In this document: positions 52,044 to 57,462 of the stretch, piece after piece | How the letters are laid out: each line of letters begins with the position of its first letter | Position numbering within the stretch: position 1 is the first letter of the stretch | Assembly (NCBI GenBank): GCA_958296045.1 | Contig: CATQHT010000002.1 | Coordinates: 558,001 to 622,000 of the forward strand | Source of the DNA: Rhodothermales bacterium | GTDB lineage: Bacteria; Bacteroidota; Rhodothermia; Rhodothermales; Bin80 | Length of the DNA: 64,000 nucleotides | Direction: 5' to 3' | The notes under the pieces: model-generated | The model's database searches: none | What the model saw: only the letters and a program-made list of their open reading frames with translations | Told to the model about the DNA's origin: nothing | Made by a program: the position numbers and the translations under genes

Positions 52044-52155
52044 GGCAAGCTCGTCAGGCTTGGCCCAAGTTTGTCAATGTAGTGGATTTTTTACGTGAGG
52101 TAACACATCCCTGACATACAGGGATGGTCAGAAGGGCGGGTTTGACCCGTGTGTT

Positions 52156-53286
52156 TTACATGTTCGCGTGCCCTTTAGCGGGGCGTCTTGCTTTCATTCT
52201 GCGGGTGTACGTGCCGGTTTTGAGCCCCATCGCGCGGAAGACTTTACGATGGAACGGCTTGAGGTCCTGGTCTTTCTTGAGCAGGGTACAATGGGTTGCG
52301 TTTTGTGGGAGCACGGTTGTTACACGATGCATCTGGTTGAGCTTGACCTTGAGTGTGCCCCAGCTGCTGTGGATGTCGACGGTTCTCAATAGGCTGCGTA
52401 TCAGATGCGCTGCGTGAAAGGCGAGAATGGACAGGAAGAGGTGGGCTTCTATGCGAAGGTCCCGACTGTGGTAGATCGGACGTAATCCGAGATCGGATTT
52501 CATGGTGCGGAACGTGCGTTCGATCTCTCCTAGCTGCCAATAGGTCTGTGTGATTTTCTTGACCGACCATTCTGCGTGGCTGGTGCGCAGTACATACCCG
52601 CCGAGGGCCTCCGTACATGCCTCGTAGGCAGGCCTCTGTGTGAGGCAGATCTTTTCGGCGTGGGTGCTGCCAGCCTTCCTGGTCACTTTAACATCATACT
52701 GGTAGGCCACCTGCTTGTACTTTTCTATGAGTCGGCCCACCCGGATCTGCACCTTATCGAAGTTCTTCAGACGTCTGGGCAGCGCAAGTCCCGCGTTCAG
52801 GTGCGCGATGGCCTCCTCGAATTTCACACGCTTTGCTCCAACAATCTGGTCGCTGACTGCTTGTCGGGCTTCACTGTGCAGATACACGCGCCGTTCTCCT
52901 CCTTCGTCTGGGAGTGCCCAGGCACGCACGTCGACATCGCTGGCGGTCTTGAAGACTTGATCCGGTGCGTCTTTGGGTACCGGCGGGGTCGTCGTACGCT
53001 GCACGCAGATCCAGTCCAGATCCTGTTCGTTCAAATACGCCAGATTGGCCTCTGTAGCGATGCCAGCGTCCATAATCACCGTGGGCTTGGCTCCGTTCAG
53101 CTGTGCAATGGCCTGGTGCAACGTGGCAGGTTCACTGGCATTGCCCGGGAGGATTTCCGCCGTGCGGGGGAACCCCGATGCATCCATCATCAAGGCCAAC
53201 GTCACCAGTGGGCAATCAGACCGTTTTTCCTTGCTGCGACCATGCCGCAGCAAGTCCCCTTTCTTGCGGCCCGTGTAGAACACATT
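52156..53286 (-). pseudogene. IS1634 transposase, C-terminal part
   Basis: Continues the transposase after the insertion point: NVFYTGRKKGDLLRHGRSKE, KRSDCPLVTLALMMDASGFP, VIMDAGIATEANLAYL (catalytic D region), VWQLGEIERTFRTMKSDLGL as YWQLGEIERTFRTMKSDLGL (E region) and HLFLSILAFHAAHLIRSLL. Frame and order match an otherwise intact gene, so loss of function is due to the insertion alone. Confidence 0.9.
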
Positions 53287-53309
53287 GGTGACAACATGGA
53301 ATCAAAAAG
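53287..53309. repeat. Left end (att half-site) of the serine-recombinase element
   Basis: Shared GGT (53287-53289) followed by GACAACATGGAATCAAAAAG. The inward half-site is the inverted counterpart of the right end (55462-55480). Confidence 0.8.
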
Positions 53310-53350
53310 ACTGCTGCGGCTGGATCGTGTTTTCGCCCGGCCCTAGTGAT

Positions 53351-53394
53351 GGATCATTTGCATATGATCATATAGTTTTGGTATTATAGGATGC
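53351..53394 (+). promoter_or_regulatory. Promoter with palindromic operator for the element's genes
   Basis: ATATGATCATAT (53362-53373) is a perfect 12-bp palindrome. It is followed by TTTTGGTATTATAGG, whose TATTAT (about 53383-53388) could be a -10 box. The first gene starts at 53395. The palindrome is a likely operator for the DNA-binding protein encoded just downstream (inference). Confidence 0.5.
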
Positions 53395-53715
53395 ATGAAA
53401 CGAGCCACACTGACGGAGCGCGCCGAGCGCGTGGCTGCAGCCAAGGTGCTGTGTCGGGAGCACAGCGCCGCAGAAGCGGCGCGCATGCTTGCCGCACGGT
53501 TCGATCTCTCCCGGGTGCAGGCTTCCCGTTACGTCCGTGCGGCGCGCGAAGCGGATTCTTCGCTGGCTCGGGCGGAGGCTACCGCGCCCCTGAGTGTCCG
53601 GATTCCCGTGGCTCTGCTTGCGCGTGCGCGGGCTCGTGCACGCCATACCGGTGTGAGTCTGGGGGCGCTGGTGGCTCGAGCGCTGGCGCGTCTTTTGGAC
53701 AGCGATTCACCGTGA
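53395..53715 (+). CDS. Small DNA-binding protein (HTH plus ribbon-helix-helix-like)
   Basis: 106 residues. Residues about 10-50 resemble a helix-turn-helix (VAAAKVLCREHSAAEAARML, followed by LSRVQASRYVRAA). Residues about 65-103 read like a ribbon-helix-helix unit (LSVRIPVALLARARARARHT, then GVSLGALVARALARLL). It precedes the recombinase in the same direction and probably acts as repressor or directionality factor (inference). Very Ala/Arg-rich, so fold calls are tentative. Confidence 0.65.
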   Translation: MKRATLTERAERVAAAKVLCREHSAAEAARMLAARFDLSRVQASRYVRAAREADSSLARAEATAPLSVRIPVALLARARARARHTGVSLGALVARALARLLDSDSP

Positions 53716-53904
53716 ATGCGTCCCATCCGCCTGACATACAAACCGGACCGGGCTGCGCAGCAGCGCATAGCCCAGGCCTACGAGCTGTTGGTGCAGCCCT
53801 GGATTTCGGACAACAATACCTCCTCGCATGAAGCAAGAAGAGAAGATCGCGGCCGTGTACGTGCGCGTATCCAGCGAGAGCCAGCGGCGCCAGCAGACAA
53901 TTAA
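53716..53904 (+). CDS. Short ORF between the DNA-binding protein and the recombinase
   Basis: Starts on the base after the upstream stop (TGA-ATG) and reads MRPIRLTYKPDRAAQQRIAQ before AYELLVQPWIS, 62 residues. It overlaps the recombinase start by 77 bases in another frame. The first 37 residues look protein-like and the overlapped tail does not. No family is recognised. Confidence 0.4.
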   Translation: MRPIRLTYKPDRAAQQRIAQAYELLVQPWISDNNTSSHEARREDRGRVRARIQREPAAPADN

Positions 53905-55630
53905 CAGTCAACTGGAGGCCGTGCTGATGAATGCGCGTGAGCGTGGCTGGGCCATCGATAAGCAGCAGATCTTTGCTGACAACGGCTACAGTGGTGCCAC
54001 CCTCGCTCGCCCCGGATTGGACGCCTTGCGCGACCTGGTCGCCCACGGCGTCCTGGCGTATGTGTTGGTCTTGTCTCCCGATCGGCTCAGTCGTAAGTTC
54101 GCCTATCAGGTTCTGCTTCAGGAAGAGTTTGAACGATACAACACCCGTATCGTCTTCGTAGAAGAGCCCGATAACGCGACGCCGCAGCAGGTACTGCTGC
54201 GCCAGATTCTGTCCGTCCTGTCAGAGTATGAGCGTACGCAGATTGCTGAGCGCTCTCGCCGCGGCAAACTCTATCGGGCCCGCCAGGGCTCTCTGAACAT
54301 GATCAGCAAGCCCCCTTACGGTTATGACCTGATCCGTAAGACGGAGACCTCCGGCGCACGATTGGTGATCAATGCCTCCGAAGCGGCGGTCGTGCGTCTG
54401 ATTTTCAAGCTTTATACCGAAAAGGGCGGCACCATTCCGGTAGTGGCACGGAAACTGGATGCACTGGGCCACAATCCCCGACACGCAAAGTACTGGGGCA
54501 TCTCCACCATTTCCAGCATCCTGCGCAATGAGGCTTACATTGGTAAGGCGGCGTATCAGAAGACGATGACATCGGAGAAACGGGTTCGGCACAATCGCAC
54601 CGGACGCAGCAAGAACGGCGCCGTGCGGAGATTGTATTCACGAACGGCTCGTCCACGAGAAGAGTGGATTACCTTGCGCGTGCCACCAATTGTTGACGAA
54701 GCAACCTTCCAACGTGCCAAAGAGCGGCGCAAACATAACCGTCGCTTTTCGGTGCGAAACACGCGTGCGCCAAGTCTTTTGCAGGGGCTATGTATCTGCG
54801 CGCATTGCGGATATGCGATGGGACGGCTCCAACATAAGAACAGCCGCAGAAAATACTATCGGTGTAATGGGACGGAGGGCTGGCGGTTTCCCGAAGGCGC
54901 CGTATGCGACAACCCCTCCGTCAACGCCGAAGATCTCGACGTAAAGGTGTGGAAGGCGGTGGTGGGATTGCTGGAAGCTCCTGAACTCATTCAGGCCGAG
55001 ATTGGTCGTCGAACCAAAGCGGCACGGAACAAGGGCCCGGCGCAACGGCGCAAGGACGAGTTGCAAAAGGAGCGTCTGAGCTGTGGAAGGCAAAGCCGCC
55101 GACTGGTGGATGCATACCAGCAAGGCCTTATAAATCTGGACGAGCTGCGCGATCGAACCGGACCGCTGCAAACGCGACAGCGGGCCATTGAATCCGAGCT
55201 CAGGGCACTACAGGCCGATCGGATGGACGCCGCGTCTACCTTGACGCTCGCCCACAGTGTTCAGAAATTTGTGGCGCGGATGCACGAAGGCGAAAAGGAC
55301 CTGTCCATCACGGAACGGCAGCAGTTGGTTCGGCTCTTGGTTCGCGAAGTACGCGTCGGCAAAACTGAAGTCACCGTATGCCATTGCATTCCGCTGGCAC
55401 CCTCAGCAGACCCCAAGCAACGCTCCGACACGCCCCTGGCCTCACCGGCCAGCGAAAACGACTTTTTGATTCCACGTCGTGGTCAGGTCAAAGAAGGCCA
55501 TGGTTTCGCTGAATCCCAAGAGCTCCTTCGTGGTGCCGAAGAGTGCATCCATGATCGACTGACGGTGCTCGTAGAGGGCATCTCCGATACGGTAAAGGCT
55601 GCTCAGACTGGGGAGGTCGCAGTGCAGTAA
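53828..55630 (+). CDS. Large serine recombinase with element-end-dependent C-terminus
   Basis: A 600-residue site-specific recombinase. The catalytic domain has AAVYVRVSSESQRRQQTINS (nucleophile Ser in RVSSE) and VLVLSPDRLSRKFAYQVLL. The Recombinase domain follows (PPYGYDLI, ISSILRNEAYIGKAAYQK), then a zinc ribbon (CICAHCGYAMGR ... YRCNG ... VCDNPS) and a coiled-coil-rich end (about 410-530). The frame does not stop before the element's right end; the last roughly 50 residues (after IPRRG) are antisense IS1634 sequence. Joined to the left end in a circle, the frame would instead read DNMESKRLLRLDRVFARP and stop at 53344-53346. Confidence 0.92.
   Translation: MKQEEKIAAVYVRVSSESQRRQQTINSQLEAVLMNARERGWAIDKQQIFADNGYSGATLARPGLDALRDLVAHGVLAYVLVLSPDRLSRKFAYQVLLQEEFERYNTRIVFVEEPDNATPQQVLLRQILSVLSEYERTQIAERSRRGKLYRARQGSLNMISKPPYGYDLIRKTETSGARLVINASEAAVVRLIFKLYTEKGGTIPVVARKLDALGHNPRHAKYWGISTISSILRNEAYIGKAAYQKTMTSEKRVRHNRTGRSKNGAVRRLYSRTARPREEWITLRVPPIVDEATFQRAKERRKHNRRFSVRNTRAPSLLQGLCICAHCGYAMGRLQHKNSRRKYYRCNGTEGWRFPEGAVCDNPSVNAEDLDVKVWKAVVGLLEAPELIQAEIGRRTKAARNKGPAQRRKDELQKERLSCGRQSRRLVDAYQQGLINLDELRDRTGPLQTRQRAIESELRALQADRMDAASTLTLAHSVQKFVARMHEGEKDLSITERQQLVRLLVREVRVGKTEVTVCHCIPLAPSADPKQRSDTPLASPASENDFLIPRRGQVKEGHGFAESQELLRGAEECIHDRLTVLVEGISDTVKAAQTGEVAVQ
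55462..55483. repeat. Right end (att half-site) of the serine-recombinase element
   Basis: CTTTTTGATTCCACGTCGT followed by the shared GGT (55481-55483). Inverted relative to the left half-site, with two mismatches in the inner 19 bases. Confidence 0.8.
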
Positions 55631-56230
55631 CTCCAGGATGCTGGATCGTTCGTGCATCCATTCATGCGTATGTCGTTCACTGCCGGGGGAGAGCATGCGC
55701 CCGACCACCAGCGCCGTCGCCAGGTGAATCTGATCTTCGCGCAACTTCAGCATTCGCAAGGACTTTGCGAATTCCAACAGCTGCAACGCTTTCAGCGCCA
55801 CACGTTCGCCTCCGACGGTACGAGTGTCGGTATGATGGACTTCGTCAATGATGACGGCATCACGGTCGTCGCGTGGATCGTCCACGTTGTAGCCCTTTTC
55901 CAGCAGCTTCTCAACGATGGTCTCGCTGGCATGGCGGAGGCCTTCACTCTCAAACGCTAGGCGGCTCTGTCCTCGTAAGCCCTCGTCAATATGGAGGATC
56001 AATGCGCGCCATTGTTCTTTGGGGATTGCGAAGGATTGGCCCAGGTTGAGGACGGTCCGCTGTTTAGGAGCGCCCTTGATACGGTGGCATTCGACCAGCG
56101 CGTAGCTGGTGGCCTTGGCACCTGATTTAAGGATGCGTGTCTTGGCGCGGATGTACATGCGTGTGAGCGTGCGGGTATCGGGTGCCCATGCGTCAATATA
56201 CGGCTTTGCAGCGAAATAGTTCTGGACCAT
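55481..56230 (-). pseudogene. IS1634 transposase, N-terminal part
   Basis: About 250 residues: YIRAKTRILKSGAKATSYAL, VECHRIKGAPKQRTVLNLG, an N-terminal helical domain, and the approach to the first catalytic region (LLGFSETMAFFDLT), where the serine-recombinase element interrupts. It would continue directly into the part at 53286. Confidence 0.9.
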
Positions 56231-56243
56231 TCCACTACATTGG

Positions 56244-56440
56244 GTATTTTGAGAAAAAAAAAGGTATCACAGCCATATGGATCATAGGTATAACACATAA
56301 TTTGAGGCCATATTGCCACAAAATAAACCCCGATTTCGCTGCACATGGGGCGCAATTGACAAACTTGAGGTGGGTGCGCCCTTTCCTTTTCCGGTCCAGC
56401 TCTACCTGGTCGGGCTTCAAAACCCCGAGCGCCCGTATCT
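56244..56440. repeat. IS1634 flank shared with 18613-18737
   Basis: The sequence outside the right IS1634 end, read on the minus strand, resembles the sequence before the IS1634 fragment at 18738 for about 120 bases (for example CCTATGATCCATATGGC in both). Two IS1634 copies thus lie in the same repeated sequence, or the element is longer than its terminal repeats suggest. No intact gene is present. Confidence 0.6.
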
Positions 56441-56541: not shown

Positions 56542-56948
56542 CTAATCGGCGTGGCCGGAATCTTTCGCTCTCTGGCTTAGAAAAGCTTTACGCCACCGAC
56601 GTTCGGGTGAAAACAGTATCCGATCAATGGTTGCCGTAAGTGTGATCCAAGCCAGGAACGTGCCCACCAGGGCATATGGAATGGTCTCGGGGGCAGAGGT
56701 CAAGATGATCCAGACTGCCTTCCCCACCAGCGCCGTCAGGCCAACCCAGATGGAACCCACTCCAAGCGCAAGTAGCCACCGCACCCAAACAACTTGCGCC
56801 TCCACTGATCATACTTTTCAGTCAGCTCGGCATGGGCAGACCGCCTACACACAAGTTCCTCCAGATCAGCCGCTCCGAGGTCCGCCTCCAGCCGCTTTGA
56901 CTCGCGACGCGTGACCGTATTAGGATCAGGATTGCCGTCACTAGTCAT
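56542..56948 (-). pseudogene. Predicted membrane-acting toxin of a Panacea TA pair, frameshifted
   Basis: Two frames overlap to form one protein. The first (from the ATG at 56948) is a hydrophilic start, KRLEADLGAADLEELV then HAELTEKYDQWRRKLF. The second is a C-terminal membrane part with two hydrophobic helices (WLLALGVGSIWVGLTALVGK; YALVGTFLAWITLTATI) and a basic end. A G lost from a GGGG run near 56786 would explain the shift. It starts 8 bases before the antitoxin gene's end. Membrane toxins are common partners of Panacea antitoxins. The function is inferred from context. Confidence 0.55.
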
Positions 56949-57462
56949 AGAAATCTCTCCGCTTTTTAAGGAAGTGTATACGGATTGCCTCGACGGGAAT
57001 CTCCGTTTCGAGCATGTCCTGTTTCTTGATCTCGCTCCAGGGCGTGCCTTCGGCGTGCGTCAGTCTTCTGAGCTCTGCCGCTGAAAATTGGCCGTAGGCC
57101 TCCCATGCCCACGAAACGGCCTTCCTGGCGGCGCGGTCCTTTAAGGGTATCGATCGCACGACCGTGGAGCCATCGGGTCTCAGATGGAAAGACCTTCCCT
57201 TTATGGGTTGCCACCCAAATACCTTGAATTCGTGGTAAAGACTCGGAATCACGGGCCCATGCTCCCAGGCCTGAATGGGTTCGGTGAACAGTGCGATGTC
57301 TTTCAGTACGAGGCCCCATCCAAATGCAAAATAGACCAACTTCTGAAGTTTCATGGGGGAAACAGATACGCCATCGCGCTCAGCCAGATCCAGAAGGTAG
57401 TTAGCTACCTGACCGGCGGAATATGGCTTCTTGCTGATACTGGGCGGCGCGGCACTTGGCAT
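56941..57462 (-). CDS. Panacea-domain (DUF4065/SocA-like) antitoxin
   Basis: 173 residues. The Panacea signature is clear: YSAGQVANYLLDLAERDG, VSPMKLQKLVYFAFGWGL, PIQAWEHGPVIPSLYHEF and KGRSFHL. The late block AAELRRLTHAEGTPWSEIK matches the family's usual ending. Panacea is a widely shared antitoxin domain that neutralises many unrelated toxins by direct binding. The overlapping downstream gene encodes a membrane protein that is probably the cognate toxin but is frameshifted. The antitoxin frame is intact. Confidence 0.8.
   Translation of the reverse strand: MPSAAPPSISKKPYSAGQVANYLLDLAERDGVSVSPMKLQKLVYFAFGWGLVLKDIALFTEPIQAWEHGPVIPSLYHEFKVFGWQPIKGRSFHLRPDGSTVVRSIPLKDRAARKAVSWAWEAYGQFSAAELRRLTHAEGTPWSEIKKQDMLETEIPVEAIRIHFLKKRRDFYD

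Follow-up and report, generated by a model that had tools for sequence, protein, structure and literature searches.

Positions 56542 to 57462 of the window, the whole 64,000-nucleotide stretch of Rhodothermales DNA analyzed here, probably hold a type II PanA/membrane-PanT toxin-antitoxin module in which the toxin gene has decayed, next to an insertion sequence. Antitoxin/membrane-toxin pairs of this kind are already known and common, and this locus is for the most part an ordinary decayed example. The original prediction, an intact Panacea antitoxin with an overlapping, frameshifted partner, was right in its coordinates, strand and two-gene layout. The features are as follows.

panA, 56941..57462, minus strand: intact Panacea-domain antitoxin of 173 aa, with a PF13274 match
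Overlap of panA stop and panT start, 56941..56948, minus strand: 8 nt, ATGACTAG, a translational-coupling layout
panT', first frame, 56736..56948, minus strand: soluble, charged start with about 54 coding-like codons before an out-of-frame tail
Frame-change interval, 56736..56808, minus strand: both frames open; codon usage switches at 56804
panT', second frame, 56542..56805, minus strand: 87 aa, with both predicted membrane helices and a C-terminal tail; stop at 56542
IS1634-family copy, 52064..56370, minus strand: its end is about 170 bp past the panT stop; a mobile neighbor, outside the module

The antitoxin and the company its relatives keep

The panA product matches the Pfam family SocA_Panacea (PF13274) at 61.5 bits, well above the cut-off of 25.7 (E=1.8e-16), which bears out the antitoxin half of the original prediction. 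It shares this SocA/Panacea domain with the type VI system SocAB and is found by the NCBIfam model for SocA (NF047745; 8e-28), but its 97.3 bits miss the equivalog cut-off of 190 by a wide margin. By this test panA is no SocA equivalog, and we treat it as a Panacea antitoxin. The partner also sets the locus apart from SocAB, in that it matches no NCBIfam family. A GPV motif occupies residues 69-71 of PanA (G69-P70-V71); among 25 aligned PanA relatives the GP is invariant and the V is conserved in at least 90%. The AlphaFold model of PanA, built from 25 aligned sequences, is confident (pLDDT 93.8). Neither a Foldseek comparison of this model with the PDB (E <= 0.001) nor a profile run against PDB sequences (E <= 0.01) turned up a match. 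In published PanAT pairs, the antitoxin-first order is the commoner one (943 vs 325; PMC8832971). The domain score above cut-off, the confident fold and the antitoxin-first order with an 8-nt overlap all argue for a PanA/membrane-PanT module that has decayed.

We surveyed what lies behind the relatives of panA. The set comprised 246 distinct Panacea proteins from whole genomes, viral contigs and genome contigs; in the genome contigs, the relatives were reached with a five-sequence alignment, as a single-protein scan gave none and an alignment of nine sequences proved too diverse. We counted a downstream partner as a small membrane protein if it was 75-200 aa long, had a hydrophobic helix past residue 25 and lay directly downstream. 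Such a protein follows 34 of the 37 closest Panacea relatives with readable flanks, versus 4 of 228 control genes from the window genome, which further supports the decayed-module reading. The offset of -8 between panA and its partner recurs in several relatives (L034, L038, L062, L065 and L077).

The survey also brought up partners of other kinds. A second, separate membrane-partner family, recognizable by 'LGxLGKFxG...TNIAG...FGSAxKK' and with 18-22 members (L083, L159, L161, L165, L168 and similar), often follows the closest Panacea relatives in Pseudomonas and Burkholderiales. Behind many Panacea genes of viral contigs (L091, L098, L119, L125 and similar) lies a soluble partner of about 135-145 aa that ends near 'HILWIDREFxLYxHG'; 29 partners were classed so.

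The frame change in the partner gene

The first frame of panT' opens at 56948, inside the end of panA, and encodes a 70-aa product without a membrane helix. The second frame is open from just upstream of 56805, where a GTG is its first listed start, down to 56542. Both hydrophobic stretches fall in this second frame, and a single-sequence AlphaFold model of its product is a two-helix hairpin (pLDDT 78.6), in agreement with the earlier description of the partner as a soluble start plus two membrane helices. To score codon usage, we trained a model on 101 long ORFs from the same genome. Frame 0 scores +10.6 bits over the first 54 codons and is negative after, and frame 2 scores +11.8 bits over the next 80 codons. 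A Viterbi segmentation blind to the finding independently placed the switch at 56804, one of 131 switches in 464 kb, many of the other 130 being ordinary gene overlaps; a genome-wide frameshift count by codon usage is too noisy for a rate. As codon usage passes from the first frame to the second, the best reading of the two ORFs is a single gene, about 135 codons long, whose frame changes between 56808 and 56736. Translated through both frames, it gives a product of about 135 aa in which a soluble, charged start (about 54 aa) precedes the two membrane helices.

By position, panT' is laid out as a membrane PanT, adjacent to panA and overlapping it by 8 nt. A charged N-terminus followed by C-terminal membrane helices emerges only on reading the one frame after the other, and the frame change leaves the gene short of an open, translatable toxin gene. 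The original prediction traced the change to one G lost from a run near 56786. The frame change itself is real in the sequence, but the run is just three G (56784-56786) and no long homopolymer. The shift may sit at any point of the frame overlap (about 56808-56736), within which the sequence alone fixes no exact base.

Could the two frames instead be separate genes, one for a 70-aa soluble protein and the other for an 87-aa membrane protein starting at GTG 56805, the latter perhaps a toxin without the antitoxin-binding region? Length alone would be no objection, as an 85-aa two-helix PanT stands behind PanA in one relative (L064). Nevertheless, the GTG has no evident Shine-Dalgarno sequence and lies 70 nt inside the first ORF, the codons of the first frame cease to look coding after about 54, and nearly all relatives carry the soluble start and the helices fused in one ORF, so that we regard two genes as very unlikely. 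Harder still to credit is programmed ribosomal frameshifting, which would bypass the change and yield full-length toxin at a low level. The two frames do overlap and the toxins of toxin-antitoxin systems are often held at low levels, but inspection of the overlap found no canonical -1 slippery heptamer, and intact relatives carry the whole protein in one frame.

The neighborhood of panT' is rich in insertion sequences. In the adjacent IS1634-family copy, the transposase gene is split by a 2.19-kb insert (window 53290-55480) that encodes a 600-aa serine recombinase; its best NCBIfam matches are of the CcrB and XisF types, below cut-off. The genome has about nine uninterrupted copies of this insertion sequence, and about ten in which the element occupies one and the same site. 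Three uninterrupted copies that we read have a single open transposase frame of 623-675 aa and share TGGT at the junction. The insert has the look of an intervening element, site-specific and lodged in a multicopy transposase gene; excision elements of the XisF type are comparable.

Copies of this element also bear on whether the frame change arose by error in sequencing or assembly. If it did, the toxin would be intact in the cell and the locus an ordinary working PanA/membrane-PanT pair. Codon usage is coding-like in both halves up to the switch, so that a real change would have to be recent; there is also a short G-run at the suggested site. Set against this, the run is only three bases long, and two other membrane PanTs are intact in the same assembly. 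Moreover, ten near-identical full-length copies of the 2,191-bp element have the same length, and a base-by-base reading of three of them shows 0-3 substitutions between them. Because the ten copies are equal in length, indels do not appear to be frequent in this assembly, although the test is blind to an error repeated in all copies. We consider an error unlikely, if a serious competitor, and in our judgement decay is favored over it. Decay of the toxin gene beside a kept panA is also found elsewhere in the family: in one related genome (G003), membrane-PanT-like genes beside Panacea carry in-frame stops at C169:37483, C109:21216 and C30 (L275, L277 and L070). This recurrence, together with codon usage that continues past the frame change, argues for a decayed module.

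Sequence affinity of the partner

Searches of Pfam, NCBIfam, PHROGs and PADLOC with panT' returned no match. We also queried with both frames joined by an X (with the second frame alone for plasmids) and found no convincing homologue in the same genome, 59 relatives, 244 genomes of the class, plasmids, phages or viral contigs. Intact counterparts do stand next to Panacea genes elsewhere, as the original prediction supposed they might. It is improbable that the partner belongs to a lineage-confined membrane-PanT family with no sequence kinship to those already known, the orphan PanA being kept to protect against related incoming modules.

The original prediction held that it would be refuted by homologues of the partner occurring mostly away from Panacea genes. 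We built a membrane-PanT profile from 18 partners and searched 296 genomes of the phylum with it, taking no account of Panacea. This gave 15 strong matches (E < 1e-8), some of which are loci that supplied the profile. Panacea lies directly upstream in 14 of these; the fifteenth starts at a contig end, so that for the membrane-PanT family every testable member (14/14) sits directly behind Panacea, the opposite of the refuting pattern.

Affinity of the window partner to this main family looked promising with one profile. A 51-sequence membrane-PanT profile aligned to nearly its whole length at 8.4 bits, and 11 or 29 of about 2,000 composition- and segment-preserving shuffles, depending on segmentation, scored as high. 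With other profiles the affinity failed: 58 of about 2,000 shuffles did as well with a 56-sequence cluster, 451 with a looser 83-sequence cluster and about 636 with a 12-sequence seed. We make no claim of homology to the main family. The window partner is a membrane PanT by layout and architecture, and its sequence affinity depends on the profile used. The lack of a homologue in these searches, the model-dependence of the profile similarity and the possibility of a single-base assembly error all weaken the decayed-module reading, which we continue to hold as probable.

Although the original prediction suggested that the intact partner may be a new Panacea-linked toxin, its architecture is a published one. 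Membrane PanTs built in this way, charged at the N-terminus and with membrane helices at the C-terminus, include two validated toxins, PanT_Esc.col. and PanT_Bar.api. (Kurata et al., 2022; PMC8832971). Three validated membrane PanTs shut down metabolism as membrane disruptors do, and two of the three cause strong depolarization and permeabilization (PMC8832971). For PanT_D11, Panacea is predicted to make contact at the N-terminal region and at the helix leading into the membrane segment, contacts that were tested by substitution (Kurata et al., 2023; PMC10440598). The disruptor-like activity of the validated PanTs and the contact of Panacea with the N-terminal region of PanT_D11 both favor reading the locus as a decayed module. 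Like these systems, the window locus has a Panacea antitoxin first, an adjacent partner, a charged N-terminus and C-terminal helices; unlike the PanT_Esc.col., PanT_Bar.api. and PanT_D11 systems, its reading frame is broken and its partner has no detectable homologue; the likeness drawn here is to their published architecture.

Intact pairs in the same genome and a model for the module

The genome carries five Panacea genes: two with intact two-helix partners, one truncated, one (in the window) with a frame-changed partner and a fifth in another layout. The intact membrane PanATs are at C1:558041 (162-aa partner) and C3:1114383 (122-aa partner). Like the window pair, both consist of a Panacea antitoxin (about 40% identical) with a two-helix partner directly downstream. 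Unlike the window partner, which has no clear score with the same profile, their partners fall in a recognizable family (E 5.5e-38 and 9.4e-26, both being themselves rows of that profile). The truncated Panacea gene (G000:C3:51261-51461; L004, L060) has lost its 3' end to an IS21-like insertion.

Collectively, these observations are consistent with a model of the intact module in which PanA, in the cytosol, would bind nascent PanT at its charged N-terminal region while the toxin is being made from the overlapping second gene. Binding would keep the two-helix hairpin out of the inner membrane, and so prevent depolarization. That masking of the N-terminal region prevents membrane insertion is inferred from the published systems (PMC8832971; PMC10440598). 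We likewise infer the toxicity of the intact form, its neutralization by binding and its loss of function here; the antitoxin family, the gene layout, the frame change, the helix architecture and the usual partner of close relatives are what the data themselves show. The frame change inside panT would split the antitoxin-binding region from the membrane helices. As the 70-aa product has no membrane part, it should be harmless, and panA would be left as an orphan antitoxin. It is thus reasonable to suppose, as the earlier proposal did, that the inactive toxin leaves the antitoxin free.

Panacea antitoxins pair with very diverse small membrane proteins, and the window locus adds to this picture. 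Almost every close relative of its antitoxin carries a membrane protein, across many phyla and viral contigs. With its toxin decayed and its antitoxin kept in a genome that also holds two intact pairs, the locus could be used to probe whether an orphan Panacea antitoxin has any function.
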